Shown piece by piece: positions 21,507 through 34,563 of a DNA stretch of 37,137 bases. Each line of letters begins with the position of its first letter. The first letter of the stretch is position 1. Under the pieces are notes generated by a model, which did not search any database, had not been told where the DNA came from, and saw only the letters and a program-made list of their open reading frames with translations. Source of the DNA: Ectothiorhodospiraceae bacterium (GTDB taxonomy: Bacteria > Pseudomonadota > Gammaproteobacteria > Nitrococcales > Aquisalimonadaceae); contig SLCE01000020.1 of the NCBI GenBank assembly GCA_007125985.1, forward strand, positions 1-37,137, written 5' to 3'. A program made the position numbers and the translations under genes.

Positions 21507-22751
21507 ATGACACAAGGTGTTCGCCGTTTTCTGGCCGGTCGAGGGATGGCACTGGCGCTTTCCGTGGGCGTGCTCGCAGGCTCTGCCGGAGCATACGCGA
21601 ACCAGGACTATCCCACAGACCAGGTCAACACAACCGGGCTGGCGGTGACCGATGACACGGTGACCGTTGGTATTTTGCAGTCACTGACCGGCACCATGGC
21701 GATCAGTGAAATGGGCGCGGTGGAGGCCTTCAGGCTCGCGATCGCGCAGATCAACGAAGAAGGCGGTGTACTCGGCCGCCAGATCGAGTACGTGCTGGAG
21801 GATGGCGCCTCCGACTGGCCCACCTTCGCCGACCGGGCGCGCAAGCTCCTGCGGCAGGATAATGTGGCCACGATCTTCGGCGGCTATACGTCCGCCTCAC
21901 GTCAGGCCATGCTGCCGGTGATCGAGCGTGAGAACGGCCTGCTGTTCTATCCCACCTTCTACGAGGGCATGGAGCAATCCCCGAATGTGGTTTACACGGG
22001 GCAGGAAGCCACGCAGCAGACCATCGCGGCACTCAACTGGCTGGCAGAGGAAAAGGGCGCCGAGACTTTTTATCTGATTGGTTCCGATTACGTCTGGCCG
22101 CGAACCACCAACAACATTGCCCGTACCCACATCGAGGAAGTGCTGGGTGGTGAAGTGGTGGGCGAGGATTACTACGCCCTGGGCCACACCTCATTCGGCT
22201 CCGCGGTTAACCGCGTTCGTCTGCGTCGGCCTGACGCCATCGTCTCCACCGTGGTGGGCGGCAGTAACGTGGCCTTCTTTCGTCAGCTCAACGCCTCGGG
22301 CCTGAATGGTTCCAATACCTTGCTGTTGTCGCTGGCCACCAGTGAGGACGAGGTGCTTGGCATCGGGGGCGAGAACGTGGAGGGCTTCTACTCCGCCTAC
22401 AAGTATTTCATGAGCCTGGAGAACGAAAACAACGAAGCGTTCGTGGCCGCGTTCAAGGAAATGCACGGCTCGGACAGCGTGATCGGTGACAACACGCAGG
22501 CTGCCTACCTGGGCCCGTGGATCTGGAAGGCCGCCGTGGAACGCGCCGGCAGCTTCGATGTGGATGCGGTGAACGACAACCTGGCGGGTATCGAACTGCA
22601 TAACGCACCGGAAGGGTATGTGCGCGTGCATGAAAACCGCCATCTCTGGACCCGTGCCCGCATCGGCAAGTGGAACGCCGACGGTCAGGCCACGGTGGTG
22701 TGGGAGTCCGACGACCTGATTGAGCCGGATCCCTTCCCTGAGGGTTACTGA
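21507..22751 (+). CDS. urtA: Urea/amide ABC transporter, periplasmic binding protein
   Basis: A 414-residue periplasmic protein with a signal peptide (RRFLAGRGMALALSVGVLAG, cleavage near AYA-NQ). The mature part follows the branched-chain-amino-acid-binding/UrtA fold: VTVGILQSLTGTMAISE at the N-terminal lobe, INEEGGVLGRQIEYVLEDGA, NVATIFGGYTSASRQAMLPV, ENGLLFYPTFYEGMEQSPNV, YLIGSDYVWPRTTN. GGYTSASR and FYPTFYEGMEQSPN are characteristic of the UrtA/FmdD/AmiC group that binds urea or short amides. The start at 21507 lies after the sigma-54 start site, with ggag upstream. The ligand could be urea, formamide or acetamide; the amidase genes downstream make amides plausible. Confidence 0.93.
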   Translation: MTQGVRRFLAGRGMALALSVGVLAGSAGAYANQDYPTDQVNTTGLAVTDDTVTVGILQSLTGTMAISEMGAVEAFRLAIAQINEEGGVLGRQIEYVLEDGASDWPTFADRARKLLRQDNVATIFGGYTSASRQAMLPVIERENGLLFYPTFYEGMEQSPNVVYTGQEATQQTIAALNWLAEEKGAETFYLIGSDYVWPRTTNNIARTHIEEVLGGEVVGEDYYALGHTSFGSAVNRVRLRRPDAIVSTVVGGSNVAFFRQLNASGLNGSNTLLLSLATSEDEVLGIGGENVEGFYSAYKYFMSLENENNEAFVAAFKEMHGSDSVIGDNTQAAYLGPWIWKAAVERAGSFDVDAVNDNLAGIELHNAPEGYVRVHENRHLWTRARIGKWNADGQATVVWESDDLIEPDPFPEGY

Positions 22752-22769
22752 TTAGCCCCACGTCCGGCC

Positions 22770-22799
22770 GGCCGGGGGTTGCTGTGCCAGCCCCCGGCC
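22770..22799 (+). other. Hairpin between urtA and urtB
   Basis: GGCCGGGGG (22770-22778) pairs with CCCCCGGCC (22791-22799), 18 bases after the urtA stop, with no T-run. Such a 3' structure usually protects the message of the binding protein so that it is made in excess over the membrane components. Confidence 0.5.
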
Positions 22800-22856
22800 C
22801 TCTCCTTCCAACCATGCTTGGGCGCCAACGGACTCGGCCCGATGGGGGACTGAACC

Positions 22857-23780
22857 ATGGGTGATTTCACCACAGAAGAATTACTGGCGATTTTCGCCAT
22901 GCAGGGCTTCGCGGGGCTGAGCCTGTTCAGCGTGCTACTGCTGATGGCCCTGGGGCTGGCAATCATCTACGGCCAGATGCGCGTGATCAACATGGCCCAT
23001 GGGGAGTTCATGGTGATCGGTGCCTACACCACGTACTTCATCTCCACCCTGGTGGTGAGCCAGGCGCCCTGGTTTCTGGATTACTACGTCTTCATCGCGG
23101 TGCCCGCGGCCTTTCTCATGGCCTTTATCGTCGGCTGGATCGTGGAGGCGGTGCTGATTCGCCACCTCTATCATCGGCCTCTGGATACGCTGCTGGCGAC
23201 CTGGGGACTGGCGCTGATCATGCAGCAGGCGTTCCGCTCCATCTTCGGCGCGCGCGAGGTCAGCGTGCGACTGCCCAGTTGGCTGCAGGGGTCCTATCAG
23301 CCGACGCTGATGATCGACATTCCCATCAACGGCATCGCCATCATGGTGCTTACCCTGTTCGTGACCGCCGGCGTTGCCTGGATGATGTATCGCTCGCGCT
23401 GGGGCCTGCGGGTGCGCTGCACCGTATCCAACCGTGAGATGAGCGGCGCCGTTGGCATCAACACCCGGTCAGTGGACCGACTCACGTTCGCCGTGGGCTG
23501 TGGCATTGCCGGTATCGCCGGTGCGGCCTTCACCACCATCTCGTCCACCGGTCCCACCAGTGGCGCACTCTACATAGTGGATACCTTCCTCGTGGTGGTG
23601 TTCGGCGGTGCGGGCAGCTTGCTGGGAACGATGGCCTCGGCGTTCTCCATCGCCCAGGGCCAGTCGATTCTCGAGTTCTTCATCAGTGGGTCCATGGCGA
23701 AGGTCCTCACCCTGCTCGTGGTGATCGGCATCCTCATGCTTCGCCCGGAAGGCCTCTTCGCCAGCAAGGTGCGCCGCTAG
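22857..23780 (+). CDS. urtB: Urea/amide ABC transporter permease UrtB
   Basis: A 307-residue inner-membrane permease of the LivH family. Eight or so hydrophobic helices are visible (for example LSLFSVLLLMALGLAIIYGQ, DYYVFIAVPAAFLMAFIVGW, AIMVLTLFVTAGVAWMMYRS, VLTLLVVIGILMLRPEGLFA). Family markers are MRVINMAHGEFMVIGAYTTY, LATWGLALIMQQAFRSIFGA and AVGCGIAGIAGAAFTTISST then VVVFGGAGSLLGT. UrtB proteins from many bacteria carry an extra N-terminal region of about 200 residues; it is absent here. It forms the transmembrane pore with UrtC. Confidence 0.92.
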   Translation: MGDFTTEELLAIFAMQGFAGLSLFSVLLLMALGLAIIYGQMRVINMAHGEFMVIGAYTTYFISTLVVSQAPWFLDYYVFIAVPAAFLMAFIVGWIVEAVLIRHLYHRPLDTLLATWGLALIMQQAFRSIFGAREVSVRLPSWLQGSYQPTLMIDIPINGIAIMVLTLFVTAGVAWMMYRSRWGLRVRCTVSNREMSGAVGINTRSVDRLTFAVGCGIAGIAGAAFTTISSTGPTSGALYIVDTFLVVVFGGAGSLLGTMASAFSIAQGQSILEFFISGSMAKVLTLLVVIGILMLRPEGLFASKVRR

Positions 23781-23804
23781 CCGCGGCGCGCCCAGGAGAT
23801 ACGC

Positions 23805-24989
23805 ATGATGAACAAATTACCGGATTTCATTGGTGGACGTAGCGGGCTGCTGGGCCTGCTGGTGTTCGCGGCCCTGCTGCTGCTGGTCTTTCCTGCCGCC
23901 ATGAACGTGGATCAGCTCTCGCTGGCGGGCCGCTTCCTGGCCTTCGGTTTTGTCGCCGCCGGGCTGGTGCTGTGCTGGGGCTACGGCGGCATTCTCAGCC
24001 TGGGGCAGGGCGTGTTTTTCGGTCTGGGTGGCTACGCCATGGCCATGTACATGAAGCTGGAGGCCTCCGACGGGCTGCCGGACTTCATGCGCTGGAACCG
24101 CATCACCGAACTGCCCTGGTTCTGGGAGCCGTTCCACAGCCTCACGTTCACGGTATTCGCGATCCTGCTGTTGCCAGCCGCCCTGGCCTATCTCATCGGC
24201 ATCGCCATGTTCAAGCGGCGGGTGAGCGGCGTGTACTTCGCCATCATTACCCAGGCCATTGCCGTGATCACGACCATTTTGATCATCGGCCAGCAGGGCT
24301 TCACCGGCGGCGCGAACGGTATCACAGACCTGCGCACCCTGAAGGGTTGGGACATCCATACTGATAGTGCGCAGGTGACACTGTATTACGCAACCGCAGT
24401 GCTGTTGATCGGCGTGATCTTGGTGGGTAAGTGGCTGCTTTCCACCAAATACGGCCGCATTCTCGTGGCCATGCGTGACCGGGAGGACAGGGTGCGCTTT
24501 TCCGGCTACGACGTGGCTAATTTCAAGGTGTTCATCTTTTGCGTGGCGGGGGTCTTCTCCGGCATCGGCGGGGCCATGTTCACCCTGCAGGAAGGGTTCA
24601 TGTCCGCCTCCTTCGTCGGGATTGTGCCGTCCATCGAGTTCGTGATCTTCGCGGCGGTGGGTGGGCGCCTTTCGCTGCTGGGCGCCGTTTACGGGGCGCT
24701 GATCGTCGGGTTCGCCAAGGTCATGTTCGCCGAGGCCTATCCGCAGCTTTGGCTGTTCCTGATCGGTTCGGTGTTCATCGTCGTGGTGCTGTTCATGCCC
24801 TACGGGCTGGCGGGGCTGCAGGAGAACCTTACCCGGCGACTGCGTGCGTATCTCAGGCGCACGGAGGAGCACCCGTCATCCACGCCCTCGCCGCCCCGCG
24901 GCACGACCTCTGTCGGCGCGAGTAACCGTCCTTCCCAGGGCGAGCCCGACGCCGATGGATCGCTGTCCACCCAGGAGGTGCGTTCATGA
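23805..24989 (+). CDS. urtC: Urea/amide ABC transporter permease UrtC
   Basis: A 394-residue LivM-type permease. Hydrophobic helices alternate with the family motifs LCWGYGGILSLGQGVFFGLG, FAIITQAIAVITTILIIGQQ and GFTGGANGITDL, and the EAA-like segment RILVAMRDREDRVRFSGYDV. The core ends at about residue 350 (MPYGLAGLQ); the last 45 residues are a polar, proline/serine-rich cytoplasmic tail (RTEEHPSSTPSPPRGTTSVG) longer than usual. aggaga precedes the start, and the stop overlaps urtD as ATGA, so the two are translationally coupled. Confidence 0.92.
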   Translation: MMNKLPDFIGGRSGLLGLLVFAALLLLVFPAAMNVDQLSLAGRFLAFGFVAAGLVLCWGYGGILSLGQGVFFGLGGYAMAMYMKLEASDGLPDFMRWNRITELPWFWEPFHSLTFTVFAILLLPAALAYLIGIAMFKRRVSGVYFAIITQAIAVITTILIIGQQGFTGGANGITDLRTLKGWDIHTDSAQVTLYYATAVLLIGVILVGKWLLSTKYGRILVAMRDREDRVRFSGYDVANFKVFIFCVAGVFSGIGGAMFTLQEGFMSASFVGIVPSIEFVIFAAVGGRLSLLGAVYGALIVGFAKVMFAEAYPQLWLFLIGSVFIVVVLFMPYGLAGLQENLTRRLRAYLRRTEEHPSSTPSPPRGTTSVGASNRPSQGEPDADGSLSTQEVRS

Positions 24990-25732
24990 CCACCAATACG
25001 AATTTTCTCCTCGCGGTGGAGGACTTGACCGTGTCTTTCGACGGATTCAAGGCCATCGACGGGCTCAACTTCTACATGGACTACAAGGAACTGCGGGTGG
25101 TCATCGGCCCCAACGGGGCGGGGAAGACCACGCTGCTGGATCTCATCTGCGGCAAGACCAAGGCCAGTGCCGGGTCCATCAAGTTCAAGGGCCAGGAGCT
25201 GACCGCCTTGCCGGAACACCGCATCGTCTGGGCCGGTGTGGGGCGCAAGTTCCAGACCCCGTCCATCTACGAGAGCCTCACCGTGCGGGAAAACCTGGAG
25301 GTGTCCTATCCGGAAGGGCGCGGCGTGTGGGGCGCGTTGGCGTTCAAGCGTGACCGCCGGGTACTGGAGAAGATCGACGAGGTCGCCGAATCCACCTTCG
25401 TCAAGGACATGCTCGACAAGGAGGCCGGGCTACTCAGTCATGGGCAGAAGCAGTGGCTGGAGATCGGGATGCTGCTGATGCAGGACCCGGAGCTGTTGAT
25501 GCTGGACGAGCCGGTGGCGGGCATGAGCGTGAAAGAGCGCGAGCAGACCGCGGAACTGCTGAACACGATCACCGAGGGTCGCTCGGTCATCGTAATTGAG
25601 CACGACATGAACTTCGTCAAGCGCATCGCACGCAAGGTCACTGTGCTGCACCAAGGGCAGATTCTGGCCGAGGGTGACATGGATAGCGTGCAGTCCGACA
25701 AGCGCGTGATTGACGTCTACCTGGGCCACTAA
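24986..25732 (+). CDS. urtD: Urea/amide ABC transporter ATPase UrtD
   Basis: A 248-residue cytoplasmic ATPase of the LivG type. Walker A is GPNGAGKTTLLD (residues 38-49), the signature LLSHGQKQWLEIGMLL, Walker B LLMLDEPVAGMS and the switch histidine VIVIEHDMNF. The unusual signature SHGQKQWLE (rather than LSGGQ) and AGVGRKFQTPSIYESLTVRE identify UrtD among LivG homologues. It pairs with UrtE to drive import. It overlaps urtC by 4 bases and is followed by urtE after 15 bases. Confidence 0.95.
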   Translation: MTTNTNFLLAVEDLTVSFDGFKAIDGLNFYMDYKELRVVIGPNGAGKTTLLDLICGKTKASAGSIKFKGQELTALPEHRIVWAGVGRKFQTPSIYESLTVRENLEVSYPEGRGVWGALAFKRDRRVLEKIDEVAESTFVKDMLDKEAGLLSHGQKQWLEIGMLLMQDPELLMLDEPVAGMSVKEREQTAELLNTITEGRSVIVIEHDMNFVKRIARKVTVLHQGQILAEGDMDSVQSDKRVIDVYLGH

Positions 25733-25747
25733 CACGGGGAAGACACC

Positions 25748-26437
25748 ATGCTGGAAGTCAGCGGCTTGAGAGTCAGTTACGGGCAGAGTGAGGTGATCCA
25801 CGGCGTCGATCTCAGCGTCAAGCGCAATGAGACGGTGGCCGTGATGGGGCGCAACGGCATGGGCAAGACCACGTTGTTCAAGACCCTGATCGGCATCCTC
25901 AAGGGTGGGGCGGGCAGCGTGAAGCTCGACGGGCAGGAGCTTGTCGGCCTGCCGAGCCACGCCCGTGTGGCCGCGGGGCTGGCCTATGTGCCCCAGGGAC
26001 GGATGATCTTCCCCACGCTGACGGTGATGGAGAACATCCAGGCGGGGTTGGAAACGGCCAGGACGAAAGCCGTTCCCGACGAGATCTTCTCGCTGTTCCC
26101 CGTGCTGCATGAGATGCGTCACCGCAAGGGCGGAAATCTCTCCGGGGGTCAGCAGCAGCAGCTGGCCATTGCCCGCGCACTGGTATCCGATCCCAAGGTG
26201 CTGCTGCTGGATGAGCCCACCGAGGGCATCCAGCCCTCCATCATCAAGGAAATCGCCCAGACACTGAACGAGATCCGGCGCCTGCGCGAGATCACCATTC
26301 TGGTCTCGGAGCAGGTGCTGAGTTTCACCCTGGATATCGCCGACCGGCTGCTGGTACTGGAGTCAGGGCGGCTGGTGCACGAGGTAAGTCGGGCGGAATG
26401 CGATGCGGACAAGATCAGCCGCTACCTGTCGGTGTAG
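25748..26437 (+). CDS. urtE: Urea/amide ABC transporter ATPase UrtE
   Basis: A 229-residue LivF-type ATPase. Walker A is [12 protein letters not shown] (about residues 35-46), then [20 protein letters not shown], signature [20 protein letters not shown], Walker [26 protein letters not shown] and [11 protein letters not shown] are typical of UrtE. It ends the transporter operon; a tRNA gene on the opposite strand starts 27 bases later. No T-run terminator is seen after it, so read-through into the antisense tRNA region and amiE is possible. Confidence 0.95.
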
Positions 26438-26463: not shown

Positions 26464-26540
26464 TGGCGCGCCCGGCAGGATTCGAACCTGCGACCTTCGG
26501 CTTCGGAGGCCGACACTCTATCCAGCTGAGCTACGGGCGC
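26464..26540 (-). tRNA. tRNA-Arg (anticodon CCG)
   Basis: A 77-base tRNA on the minus strand with encoded CCA. The acceptor stem GCGCCCG/CGGGCGC is perfect, the D arm reads GCTCAGCTGGATAGAGT, the anticodon arm TCGGC-CTCCGAA-GCCGA gives CCG (reads CGG), and the T arm is GCAGG-TTCGAAT-CCTGC. The discriminator base is G. It lies between urtE and amiE, transcribed against both. Such a site is a common landing place for integrating elements, but no integrase or attachment repeat is visible nearby. Confidence 0.96.
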
Positions 26541-26724: not shown

Positions 26725-27771
26725 ATGCGTCACGGTGATATTTCCAGCAGCAAGGACACGGTGGGTGTTGCGGTCGTCAACTACAAGATGCCGCGCCTGC
26801 ACACCAAGGCCGAAGTGCTCGATAACGCCCAGAAGATCGCAGACATGATCGAGGGCATGAAGGTGGGCCTGCCCGGACTCGATCTGGTCATTTTCCCCGA
26901 GTACAGCACCATGGGGATCATGTACGACCCGGATGAAATGTACGCCACGGCGGCCACCATACCCGGTGACGAAACCGAGATTTTCGCCCGTGCCTGCCGC
27001 AAGGCCAACGTCTGGGGTGTGTTCTCGCTCACCGGCGAGCGCCACGAGGAGCACCCCAAGAAGGCGCCTTACAACACGCTGATCCTCATGAATAACAAGG
27101 GCGAGATCGTTCAGAAGTACCGCAAGTGCATTCCCTGGTGCCCGATCGAGGGCTGGTATCCGGGCGATCGCACCTACGTCAGCGAAGGACCGAAGGGCCT
27201 GAAGTTGAGCCTGATCATCTGCGATGACGGCAATTACCCGGAGATCTGGCGGGACTGCGCGATGCGCGGGGCGGAACTCATCGTCCGCTGCCAGGGCTAT
27301 ATGTACCCGGCCAAGGAACAGCAGATCAACATGTCCAAGTGTATGGCCTGGGCCAATAACACCTACGTGGCCGTGGCCAACGCCACCGGCTTCGACGGGG
27401 TGTACAGCTACTTCGGCCATTCCGCCCTCATCGGTTTCGACGGTCGCACGCTGGGTGAATGCGGTACTGAGGAAAACGGGATCCAGTATGCGCAGTTCTC
27501 CGTCTCGGCCATTCGCGATGCGCGGGAGAACGATCAGTCCCAGAACCACCTGTTCAAGCTGCTGCACCGGGGTTACACCGGCATGCATGACTCCGGTGAC
27601 GGCGACAAGGGCCTGGCGGAATGCCCCTTCGAGTTCTATCGCACCTGGGTGAACGATGCCGAGAAGGCGCGGGAGGACGTGGAAAAGATCACCCGCAGCA
27701 AGGTAGGTGTGGCCAGCGCGCCAGTGAAGGATCTGCCGTACGACGCCAAGGAAGACGAGGCGGCGGAATAG
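26725..27771 (+). CDS. amiE: Aliphatic amidase AmiE
   Basis: A 348-residue cytoplasmic enzyme of the nitrilase superfamily that hydrolyses short aliphatic amides such as acetamide, propionamide and acrylamide to the acid and ammonia. It follows Pseudomonas AmiE from the first residues ([20 protein letters not shown]) onward. The catalytic triad is present: Glu59 (FPEYST), Lys134 (KYRKCIPW) and Cys166 ([10 protein letters not shown]). [20 protein letters not shown] and [19 protein letters not shown] are also conserved. AmiE assembles as a homohexamer. gaggag precedes the start at 26725; the longer frame from 26629 lacks family homology. It is followed by amiB, as in Pseudomonas, but preceded by an ABC transporter. 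Confidence 0.95.
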
Positions 27772-27788: not shown

Positions 27789-27820
27789 CCGGTGGTGGGC
27801 CCTGCGGGGCCCGCCACCGG
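27789..27820 (+). other. Stable hairpin between amiE and amiB
   Basis: CCGGTGG-T-GGGCCC (27789-27802) pairs with GGGCCC-G-CCACCGG (27807-27820) around a TGCG loop, 17 bases after the amiE stop. The stem is 14 bp with one T-G pair; no T-run follows. It likely stabilises amiE mRNA or attenuates transcription so that the amidase exceeds AmiB. Confidence 0.6.
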
Positions 27821-27840: not shown

Positions 27841-28971
27841 ATGCCCTTTCTCAACGAAATGCTGGACGAAACCAGTCGTCGCCGTCTGGAAGAGCAGCGG
27901 CTGGCCGAGGACAACGCCGGCGAAGTGGTATCCGTGAAGCCGATGGAGCCGGACGGTCTGGATAGCCGCTATCGCTTTGACGTCGCTGCGATCATGCGCT
28001 CGGTGCGTGGCGAGATTCTCGGCCAGGAGGCGGCGGTGGATGCGCTGGAACGGATGCTGCACATCGTGCGAGCTGACATCGCCGATCCGCGCCGGCCCCT
28101 GCACACGGCGCTGTTCCTCGGGCCGACCGGGGTCGGCAAGACCGAGCTGGTGCGCGCCCTGGCCCGGGCGCTGCACGGCGACGCCGACGCGTTCTGCCGC
28201 GTGGATATGAACACCTTGTCCCAGGAGCACTACGCCGCTGCGCTCACTGGGGCGCCGCCCGGCTACGTGGGCAGCAAGGAAGGCACCACCATCCTGAACC
28301 AGGAGCTCATCGAGGGCAGCCTGGGGAAGCCAGGTATCGTCCTGTTCGATGAGCTGGAGAAAGCCTCGGATGAGGTGGTGCAGGCCCTGTTGAATGTGTT
28401 CGACAACGGCATGCTGACCGTGGCCTCCGGCGAACGAACCTACAGTTTCCGTAACGCGCTGGTGTTCATGACCAGCAATCTGGGCGCGCGGCGCCTGCAG
28501 AACTTCGAGGAACGTCGTCTCCGCCTGCCGCGCCGCCTTCTGCCCATGACCCCGGCCCGCCAACGGGAGAAACGCGATCAGCTTATGGAGCGCGAGCTGC
28601 TCCGGCGTTTCACCCCGGAATTCGTCAACCGTATCGACACCATCACCGTGTTCAACTGGATGCAGGGCGTGGTGGTGGAACGGTTGGTGGATTTGGAAAC
28701 CGCCCGGCTCAACCGTCGGCTGCGCAGGCATAACGTGGAGCTGCGTCTACAGTCGGAGGTGCGGCACCGCATTGCGACGGAGGGTTTCGACCGCAAGTTC
28801 GGCGCCCGTTCGCTGCGCCGGGCCATGCGGCATCGCATTGAGGCGCCGTTGGCGCATTACCTGCTGACCGAATTCCGGCCGGGGGCGGATGCCGTTCAAG
28901 TGGTGGAAGCACGGCTCGACGGCGGTTCCATCCGGTTCTGTCCCCTGGGTCCTGGCTCACGTCATCCTTAG
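27841..28971 (+). CDS. amiB: AmiB-type AAA+ ATPase (ClpB D2-like) linked to amidase
   Basis: A 376-residue stand-alone AAA+ protein. It has Walker A GPTGVGKT (94-101), the pore loop GYVG (141-144), Walker B IVLFDE (166-171), sensor 1 TSNLG (211-215), an arginine finger in FTPEFVNRID (Arg264) and sensor 2 FGARSLRR (320-327). This is the Clp/Hsp100 second-module type, without the N-domain or first ATPase ring of ClpB/ClpA. In Pseudomonas the gene after amiE is amiB, a ClpA/B-related ATP-binding protein thought to act as chaperone, which supports the name. It probably aids assembly of the amidase; that role is inferred. It sits 11 bases ahead of the next amidase gene. Confidence 0.85.
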   Translation: MPFLNEMLDETSRRRLEEQRLAEDNAGEVVSVKPMEPDGLDSRYRFDVAAIMRSVRGEILGQEAAVDALERMLHIVRADIADPRRPLHTALFLGPTGVGKTELVRALARALHGDADAFCRVDMNTLSQEHYAAALTGAPPGYVGSKEGTTILNQELIEGSLGKPGIVLFDELEKASDEVVQALLNVFDNGMLTVASGERTYSFRNALVFMTSNLGARRLQNFEERRLRLPRRLLPMTPARQREKRDQLMERELLRRFTPEFVNRIDTITVFNWMQGVVVERLVDLETARLNRRLRRHNVELRLQSEVRHRIATEGFDRKFGARSLRRAMRHRIEAPLAHYLLTEFRPGADAVQVVEARLDGGSIRFCPLGPGSRHP

Positions 28972-28982
28972 GAGGTCCCATC

Positions 28983-30497
28983 ATGTCCGTCAAACTGCCC
29001 GATCAGTTCACCCTGGAAGCCATTTCCGACGCATTCGGTTTCAACCTCTCGCCTGAAGAACTGGCGGAGTATGAGCCCGCCGTGGCGGCCAGCCTGGCCG
29101 CCTACGCACGCATTGACGAGTACGCGGATGAGCTGTTGCCTGTGAAGTATCCCCGCGCATCGGTGGGTTATCGGCCCGTGGGTGATCAAAATCCCGGCAA
29201 CGGCTGGGCATGGAAGTGCTCCATTCCCGGTGCGGACGAGGGGCCTCTGGCCGGTCGCACCATTGGCATCAAGGACAACGTGCTGGTGGCGGGCATTCCC
29301 ATGCTCAACGGTTCCCCGATCATGGAAGGCTACGTGCCGCGGGAGGATGCGACCGTGGTCACGCGCTTGCTGGATGCCGGCGCGCACATCATCGGCAAGA
29401 CCGCGGTGCCGGCTTTCTGCTTCGATGGCGGCGGCTGTACCGGCTATCCGGAACCCCAGCCGGAGAACCCCTACAAAGCAGGCTATATGGCGGGCTCATC
29501 GTCCAACGGCAGCGCCGTTGTCGTCATGAAAGGGGAAGCAGACATGGCCCTGGGGGGAGACCAGGGCGGCTCCATCCGCATGCCGGGCTCCTGGAGCGGC
29601 TGCTACGGTCTCAAGCCCACCAAAGGCCTGGTGCCCTACACCGGTATCTTCCCCATCGAACGCACGCTGGACCATACCGGTCCCATGGCCCGCAGCGCCG
29701 AGGACTGCGCCCTGATGCTGCAGGTGATCGCGGGGGCGGACGGGCTGGATCCGCGCCAGTATGACGTGCGTACCGAGGATTACATGGCAGCGCTGGGAGA
29801 GGACCTCTCCGGCTTGCGCATCGGTCTGCTGCGTGAGGGCTTTGGTATTCCCGACATGAGTGAGGCGGATGTGGATGAAGCCGTGCGCCAGGCCGCGGCG
29901 GTGCTGGAGAAGGCCGGTGCCAGCGTGTCCGAGGTGTCGGTTCCCATGCACGCCGACGGGCTGGTGCTCTGGTCCGCGATTGCCACCGAGGGCGCCACCG
30001 ATTTGATGGTCGCCGGCGATGCCTTCGGCACCAACGCCGGTGGCCATTATTCCACCGATCTGGTGGATTTCTTCGGCCGCGCCCGCCGGGCTCGGGGCCA
30101 GGATTTCAGCCAGACTGTGAAGGCAACCGTATTGGCCGGGCATTACATGAGCACGCGCTATCACCGTCGTTATTACGCCAAGGCCCAGAACCTGGGTCGC
30201 CGTCTGCGGCGCGAATACGACGCCGCGCTGCAGGGCGTGGACCTGCTGGTCATGCCCACCACGGCGATGAAGGCCATGCCCAAGCCGGCGGACCGTTCGC
30301 TGGCCACGGTGCTCGCCAGTGCCCTGGGCAATCTGTACAACACCGCGCCCTTTGACGTGACGGGCCACCCGGCCATGAACGTGCCGGCCGGTGTGTCTGA
30401 TGGTCTGCCGGTGGGGATGATGCTGGTGGGCCGTCACTGGGAGGATGCAACGGTGCTGAAGGCTGCGCACGCCTTCCAGGCCAAGACCGGCACTTGA
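28983..30497 (+). CDS. Amidase-signature amidase, nitrile-hydratase-associated type
   Basis: A 504-residue amidase with the Ser-cisSer-Lys triad: Lys97 (GIKDN), Ser173 (MAGSSSNGSA) and nucleophile Ser197 in GGDQGGSIRMPGSW. GGDQGGSIR, KPTKGLVPYTGIFPIERTLD and ADGLDPRQYD are hallmarks of the Rhodococcus-type amidases that sit beside nitrile hydratase and convert aliphatic or aromatic amides to acid and ammonia. The first 90 residues form the extra N-terminal helical domain of this subgroup. No nitrile hydratase is present in the window, so amides rather than nitriles are the likely substrates here. A strong taggaggt lies before the ATG, and amiB precedes it by 11 bases, so the two are in one operon. 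Confidence 0.92.
   Translation: MSVKLPDQFTLEAISDAFGFNLSPEELAEYEPAVAASLAAYARIDEYADELLPVKYPRASVGYRPVGDQNPGNGWAWKCSIPGADEGPLAGRTIGIKDNVLVAGIPMLNGSPIMEGYVPREDATVVTRLLDAGAHIIGKTAVPAFCFDGGGCTGYPEPQPENPYKAGYMAGSSSNGSAVVVMKGEADMALGGDQGGSIRMPGSWSGCYGLKPTKGLVPYTGIFPIERTLDHTGPMARSAEDCALMLQVIAGADGLDPRQYDVRTEDYMAALGEDLSGLRIGLLREGFGIPDMSEADVDEAVRQAAAVLEKAGASVSEVSVPMHADGLVLWSAIATEGATDLMVAGDAFGTNAGGHYSTDLVDFFGRARRARGQDFSQTVKATVLAGHYMSTRYHRRYYAKAQNLGRRLRREYDAALQGVDLLVMPTTAMKAMPKPADRSLATVLASALGNLYNTAPFDVTGHPAMNVPAGVSDGLPVGMMLVGRHWEDATVLKAAHAFQAKTGT

Positions 30498-32860: not shown

Positions 32861-34563
<1,703 letters not shown>

Follow-up and report, generated by a model that had tools for sequence, protein, structure and literature searches.

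AmiB is the ATPase of a textbook amidase operon and, to our knowledge, its purpose is still open; an older proposal for Pseudomonas reportedly has it power amide transport by AmiS. We take the Pseudomonas aeruginosa protein PA3365 to be the same single-ring Clp-like ATPase, and the presumed namesake of the family analysed here. No experiment linking AmiB to the AmiE protein was found in print, and combined searches for AmiB with amidase operon, AmiS or ATPase yielded no paper on it. PMC10213629 lists amiB and amiS among the genes of the P. aeruginosa amiE operon (amiEBCRS), with PA3365, a 'probable chaperone', beside amiE (PA3366).

Client-directed remodelling is described for AAA+ ATPases of the MoxR class that pair with a VWA protein, such as NorQ/NorD and RavA/ViaA, and NorQD is presented as a maturation machine (PMC9976466). 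In CbbQO, the MoxR ATPase CbbQ is joined by the VWA adaptor CbbO. According to PMC4660213, Rubiscos encoded with CbbQO carry a C-terminal HK/R motif, which is essential for activation by CbbQO. The accounts in PMC4660213 and PMC8718961 add that deleting one residue from this end, or adding one Ala, abolishes activation, that the penultimate His is critical while the last residue may vary, and that the MIDAS of the VWA protein is required for the Rubisco client. A 2026 paper reports CbbQ-type and NorD-like genes in one plasmid amiE operon, and its authors suggest an 'assembly/activation' part for the pair (PMC13209695).

A single-ring Clp-type ATPase among urea and amide genes

In the window, by which we mean the whole 37,137-nucleotide stretch of DNA analysed here, amiB starts 69 nt after amiE and is followed, after 11 nt (28972-28982), by a gene for a second amidase (Table 1). 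A Clp-D2-type ATPase gene thus stands beside amiE, as listed for P. aeruginosa, but the surroundings differ from those of amiEBCRS. A search of the window's genome detected no amiS, the window has no AmiR-like match and its AmiC-like match is UrtA, so that an amiC/R/S set is missing from what was found; the locus has urea uptake genes on one side and urease genes on the other, and it is followed by the second amidase. Downstream of the latter are hupE and urease genes, the urease being named by eye from the translations. AmiE passes the cut-off of the aliphatic amidase profile NF009802 and has all four of E59, K134, E142 and C166, which are presumably its catalytic residues, and the solved structure nearest to the second amidase is that of amidase 3a1k/3a1i. 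The enzymes flanking AmiB belong to different superfamilies, CN_hydrolase for AmiE and amidase signature for the downstream protein (Pfam, NCBIfam).

Table 1. Coordinates of the features discussed. Positions refer to the window, except in the last row, where they refer to the loci named.
Feature	Position	Strand	Remarks
urtABCDE urea ABC transporter, upstream	21507..26437	+	TIGR03407-03411 over cut-off
tRNA-Arg(CCG) between urtE and amiE	26464..26540	-	
amiE, aliphatic amidase (CN hydrolase), 348 aa	26725..27771	+	NF009802, 709.7 bits against cut-off 427
AmiE C-terminal tail (residues 339-348)	27739..27768	+	pLDDT <50
amiE-amiB intercistronic hairpin	27789..27820	+	14 bp stem, z -2.07
amiB, stand-alone Clp-D2-type AAA+ ATPase, 376 aa	27841..28971	+	ATG start
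N-terminal helix with conserved MPF-x-N start	27841..27912	+	helix 3-24 in AlphaFold model
Walker A GPTGVGKT (residues 94-101)	28120..28143	+	invariant in 36/36 AmiB
Pore loop GYVG (residues 141-144)	28261..28272	+	GY[VA]G in 36/36 AmiB
Walker B IVLFDE (residues 166-171)	28336..28353	+	D170 and E171 in 36/36 AmiB
Arg-rich segment at the ClpP-docking loop position of ClpA/X	28486..28614	+	without IGF/IGL-type tripeptide
PEFVNRID with Arg finger R264	28615..28638	+	R264 in 36/36 AmiB
Sensor 2 GAR	28801..28809	+	R323 in 36/36 AmiB
Second amidase, amidase signature (PRK07235/NF005565)	28983..30497	+	702.6 bits against cut-off 545
'Tubulin-like domain' protein pair, three Rhodococcus plasmids	L174 9103-12737; L176 7248-10828; L196 9127-12707		

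As separate observations, the window holds two urease clusters, at 3-8 kb and at 31-36 kb (genes named by eye), whose UreC proteins are 60% identical, and an Rfam match to the 5' ureB sRNA at 33012-33295 on the minus strand.

AmiB is a single AAA+ module of the D2 type of Clp/HSP100 proteins, in which the Pfam domains AAA_2 (E 2.5e-41) and ClpB_D2-small (2.9e-17) were both over cut-off and in which N-domain, D1 (the first ring) and M-domain are absent. The best NCBIfam profiles were ClpB, ClpA, ClpK, ClpV and ClpG, each matched in its D2 part only and far under its cut-off; with 238.6 bits against a ClpB cut-off of 1232, and a length of 376 aa only, the protein does not qualify as a ClpB disaggregase. 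Walker A and B, sensor 1, Arg finger, sensor 2, aromatic pore loop and D2-small domain are all present. The motifs are near-invariant across 36 AmiB proteins, with an invariant sensor 1 (TSN) and a pore loop that reads GYVG in 31 and GYAG in 5. An AlphaFold model (mean pLDDT 85.8, with residues 142-148, at the pore loop, below 50) contains two C-terminal strands, and its top Foldseek matches were ClpC and ClpB chains; the nearest proteins by sequence likewise included ClpC. These results agree with the first-pass annotation of the window, which had described a complete set of ATPase motifs with a GYVG pore loop, an 11-base distance to the downstream amidase and two unrelated amidases. Its statement that AmiB has no N-domain was right for the Clp N-domain and is refined here, as the protein carries an N-terminal extension, roughly 45 aa long, with a conserved beginning (MP[FY][ILVA][NT] in 31/36 AmiB).

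AmiB therefore has the fold and ATPase motifs of the D2 module of ClpB and ClpC in common with these proteins, but it consists of one AAA+ module, is encoded as a dedicated neighbour gene and, in the window protein, has no ClpP tripeptide. The segment that we place where ClpA/X have their ClpP-docking loop reads PRRLLP in the window and is a Trp-Arg-Arg-aromatic type of loop in 20 of the 36 AmiB proteins. A docking tripeptide of the IGF/IGL type is absent from the window AmiB and from 31/36 AmiB, with LGL or LGF at this site in the other five, and on this motif the window protein is not a ClpP partner. The segment is a possible candidate for a client-docking loop. Neither does AmiB belong with CbbQO, since it is of Clp-D2 type and not MoxR/CbbQ, has no CbbQ_C domain and comes without a VWA adaptor gene. 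From NorQ/NorD and RavA/ViaA, whose remodelling of clients resembles what is proposed below for AmiB, it differs in AAA+ clade and in the chemistry of the client. A defence role was considered and rejected, as the PADLOC matches were to generic AAA+ proteins (the best, PDC-M37B at E 5.4e-20, covered the ATPase core).

Genomic association of AmiB with AmiE

Among 95 genomes of relatives, searched with an AmiB threshold of E <= 1e-60, AmiB was found in 12 and AmiE in the same 12. All 13 pairs were adjacent and on the same strand, the AmiB gene starting 69-117 bp after AmiE as measured between alignment edges. In a class-level sample, 4 of 370 genomes carried AmiB and 15 carried AmiE; in a phylum-level sample, inferred to be Pseudomonadota, the counts were 11 and 34 of 397, and in both samples every AmiB gene came directly after AmiE (4/4 and 11/11). 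The AmiB search scored five candidates per genome in these two samples, so that weak AmiB may have been missed, and the loci of the AmiE genomes were also read. Genome contigs were further scanned with the pattern PTGVGKTE, which mostly retrieved ClpB/ClpC-type proteins. The best 80 of 461 loci included three AmiB (L032-L034; frames of 368-395 aa, 423-513 bits), all with AmiE, and the other 77 were Clp-type frames of at least 548 aa and at most 311 bits, none with AmiE.

AmiE was present in all 37 AmiB loci read, part of which had been fetched by AmiB and part by AmiE, and it lay upstream on the same strand in 33. In four actinobacterial loci (L034, L174, L175, L196) AmiB is on the opposite strand from AmiE, and in L175 the two are 2.6 kb apart with acs between them. 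Support from beyond the window's phylum consists of plasmid records and loci L032 and L034. The survey of amiB neighbours proposed in the first-pass annotation thus revealed non-random neighbourhoods, and the co-occurrence and adjacency of the two genes single out AmiE as the presumed client.

The same annotation had placed AmiB between two amidases and suggested that it serves both, or that it remodels one specific oligomer. The 11 nt spacing in the window, and direct adjacency in two further loci (L016, L017), speak for the second amidase as a client. This enzyme is, however, encoded in only 5 of the 37 AmiB loci, and directly downstream in three, the window included. Among the 95 relatives, an NF005565 amidase over cut-off was found in eight; it adjoins AmiB in three (G000, G001, G004) and lies 1.9 kb off in G009, but is on another contig in G002 and G016, 216 kb from AmiB in G032, and present in G006, where no AmiB was found. 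The gene distribution led us to reject the second amidase as the client, and a role of AmiB on this enzyme, or on both amidases, is most unlikely. The position between two amidases is real in the window and local to a few relatives, and what persists of the single-oligomer suggestion is the identity of the client, AmiE. A link of the second amidase with nitrile hydratase was also discarded, since NthA and NthB were found only in L117 among the 37 AmiB loci; neither was found in L135-L138, and no paper connecting nitrile hydratase with an AAA ATPase was found. L117, on a Parageobacillus plasmid, combines amiE-amiB with genes for nitrile hydratase and a PRK07235-like amidase inside 10 kb, forming a set for nitriles and amides.

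CbbQ and VWA proteins beside AmiE, and the AmiE C-terminus

Read from AmiE first, the class and phylum samples gave 48 distinct loci (15 and 34, the window being common to both). AmiB was present in 14 of these, a CbbQ/NorQ-type AAA+ protein with a VWA protein in 10, a VWA protein alone in 7 and no machine within 5.5 kb of AmiE in 17, and none had both, so that CbbQ and its VWA partner stand beside AmiE in the place of AmiB. In all seven VWA-only cases the genome carries CbbQ elsewhere (the VWA gene of L130 is 3.9 kb off). In 12 of the 17 partnerless genomes no AmiB, CbbQ or VWA machine was found genome-wide, in draft genomes searched with profile A2 and PF08406 and, for AmiB, by the sample searches. 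AmiE can thus do without either machine in 12 of the 48 genomes, and a partner is not universal. The window's genome, which is 98.9% complete, yielded neither CbbQ nor such a VWA protein, and hence no CbbQO-type activase.

The one CbbQ-like protein scanned, from L125, has AAA_5 and CbbQ_C domains. Nine further regions encode CbbQ proteins with 67-72% identity to the CbbQ of L125 or of L178; in five of these regions a Rubisco large subunit is also encoded, with an HK end in each (5/5). The DxSxS-T-D MIDAS pattern is invariant in all 19 VWA proteins aligned. In two genomes, G349 (L123, L212) and G108 (L130, L211), a single CbbQ was found, and its neighbour is a Rubisco large subunit that has an HK end. 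Each of them also encodes a second VWA protein close to AmiE, immediately downstream of it in G349 and at a distance of 3.9 kb in G108. The plain reading, a possible one, is of one CbbQ motor with two VWA adaptors, common to Rubisco and amidase; some autotrophs perhaps use the same CbbQ for Rubisco and AmiE in this way, with the second VWA protein as adaptor. Neither the alternation of AmiB with CbbQ/VWA nor the AmiE tail motif was found in print among the matches listed; no 'amidase activase' was found, and no paper on MoxR and VWA proteins with AmiE was recognised by title.

AmiE proteins linked to CbbQ/VWA carry at their C-terminus the H-K/R tag that CbbQO, by the accounts cited above, needs on Rubisco. 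In the discovery set, an H[RK] end was found in 19 of 20 AmiE with CbbQ/VWA in the locus, the exception (L123) ending His-Gln, and in 1 of 18 relatives without a partner. The prediction was fixed in advance for a fresh set of 30 new loci, 16 from plasmids and 14 from one family (f99), in which the H[RK] end was present in 17/17 AmiE with a partner and 0/11 without. Here L193, whose VWA gene is on the opposite strand at a distance of 5.2 kb, was counted as partnered, being inside the 5.5 kb limit set earlier, and in L181 and L183 CbbQ is 2.5 kb downstream. Three further AmiE of the fresh set belong to the AmiB branch, among them H33, a plasmid locus outside the pre-written list. Pooled on the tree, with fragment L210 left out, the H[RK] end occurs in 35/36 AmiE with CbbQ/VWA versus 1/29 without, and the penultimate His alone in 36/36 versus 2/29. 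Because the AmiE rows are related, the paired test is the fair one. Over seven independent pairs on supported branches, the tail agreed with the partner in an average of 6.7 and ran against it in none, a result that is only just significant (median p 0.016, range 0.016-0.031). Among 363 columns tested, the penultimate His reached p 2.8e-16, against 1.4e-5 for the best column in the enzyme body, both values being uncorrected for kinship.

By contrast, AmiE proteins of the AmiB branch have no such tag (0/41). The window AmiE ends EDEAAE, unlike a CbbQO client, and the tails of AmiB-type AmiE (..KE-x-x-A..) are only loosely conserved. Four AmiE of this branch have no AmiB in the stretch read (L172, L176 and two in L191). 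With AmiF as the outgroup to 76 AmiE proteins, the tree keeps those linked to AmiB apart from those linked to CbbQ/VWA, with one label change among the labelled rows; in a tree of 106 AmiE built with the tail removed, three Bacillota proteins (L117, L120, L172) fall between both groups. Only four enzyme-body columns (302, 312, 334, 337) tell the groups apart at a level of at least 80%, and there is thus no obvious docking face. Tail and partner were out of step in L128 (G409, 95% complete), where AmiE ends HR in a genome that yielded neither CbbQ nor a VWA protein, reflecting either a recent loss or a gap, and in L202, which has the penultimate His and no partner. Genome G146 has a CbbQ/VWA pair elsewhere, and its AmiE is AmiB-linked and ends ..EKEA, indicating that the tail goes with the machine encoded in its own operon.

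A candidate amidase activase

Taken together, these data suggest that AmiB is a dedicated AAA+ motor for AmiE, an 'amidase activase' that would remodel blocked or dead-end enzyme, a reading to which we assign a probability of about 0.6. That AmiB is a motor of AmiE is well supported. The H-R/K end on an amidase unrelated to Rubisco, and its covariation with CbbQ/VWA, are hard to account for unless this machine handles AmiE as it does Rubisco; by analogy, we infer that AmiB has the role of CbbQ/VWA in its own branch and would engage the AmiE tail. In the proposed mechanism, single-ring AmiB would grip AmiE, with the tail that is predicted to be disordered as the most likely candidate handle, and force from the pore loops would remodel a blocked or dead-end AmiE and return it to activity. 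Rescue would be needed if the active-site Cys became trapped by an amide or urea analogue, the candidate inhibitor. Urea inhibits Pseudomonas amidase, and the amiE-amiB operon adjoins genes for urea uptake and urease.

AmiB might be made in lower amount than AmiE by means of the intercistronic hairpin; that this element sets the AmiB amount is our guess. A stem of at least 9 bp was found in 22/31 amiE-amiB, 7/9 amiE-cbbQ and 2/4 amiE-VWA gaps, with median z of -2.0, -2.5 and -1.4, respectively; folding covered these three classes of gap, some of which include a few coding bases as starts were taken from alignments.

The odds appear even that activases are not peculiar to Rubisco and that AmiE forms a second client class, served by CbbQ through the H-R/K tag or by AmiB. 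Such a swap of motors on one client would mirror the several unrelated activases of Rubisco, the idea of an activase would extend from Rubisco to a nitrogen-scavenging hydrolase, and two unrelated enzymes would have a portable C-terminal tag in common. The proposal names a likely client and role of AmiB and, if true, would offer a practical lever for AmiE-type amidases, which are used on acrylamide and related amides.

The genomic tie to AmiE would be the same if AmiB were a chaperone that assembles or matures the AmiE oligomer, acting once on newly made enzyme as NorQD does for nitric oxide reductase. The maturation role of that MoxR/VWA pair (PMC9976466) and the 'assembly/activation' part suggested for the pair beside amiE (PMC13209695) are in line with such a function. 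However, AmiE is retained in genomes that yielded neither machine, and the HR tail is, in what is reported of Rubisco, an activase tag used on finished enzyme. AmiE, moreover, is not known to need the insertion of a metal or cofactor. Given the Rubisco parallel and the occurrence of AmiE in 12 of 48 genomes without a machine, we prefer an activase and regard maturation as unlikely.

Besides the second amidase, weighed above, two further functions would give AmiB a different task. Unfolding of AmiE for degradation by ClpP when amides run out would suit the Clp-type fold, with ClpC among the nearest proteins, and the LG[FL] tripeptide of five AmiB proteins. Set against this are the absence of the tripeptide from the window AmiB and from the large majority of the family, the waste of co-expressing a degrader with its enzyme, and the nature of the replacing machine, CbbQ/VWA, which is of the remodelling and not the degrading kind; degradation is therefore highly unlikely. 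That AmiB powers an amide transporter with AmiS would account for the presence of both genes in the P. aeruginosa operon (PMC10213629), and AmiS was found in 2 of the 37 AmiB loci. Yet the window's genome yielded no AmiS/UreI, tblastn detected none in the other 35 loci (some of these are short, and a divergent AmiS may escape the search), and 24/37 hold a UrtB-like ABC permease, making a transport function scarcely credible. An amidase activase remains our preferred reading.

Two minor observations concern the plasmid loci. Three Rhodococcus plasmids encode a pair of 'tubulin-like domain' proteins near amiE, annotated as such or alike by tblastn (Table 1), and in RHA1 the pair is directly downstream of amiE, with no AmiB seen there. 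In an Agrobacterium plasmid (L173), a second CbbQ/VWA pair, at 1-4 kb of the locus, is located 3-5 kb upstream of an amiE-cbbQ-VWA operon and adjoins a gene for a protein like the Rhodococcus tubulin-like one.
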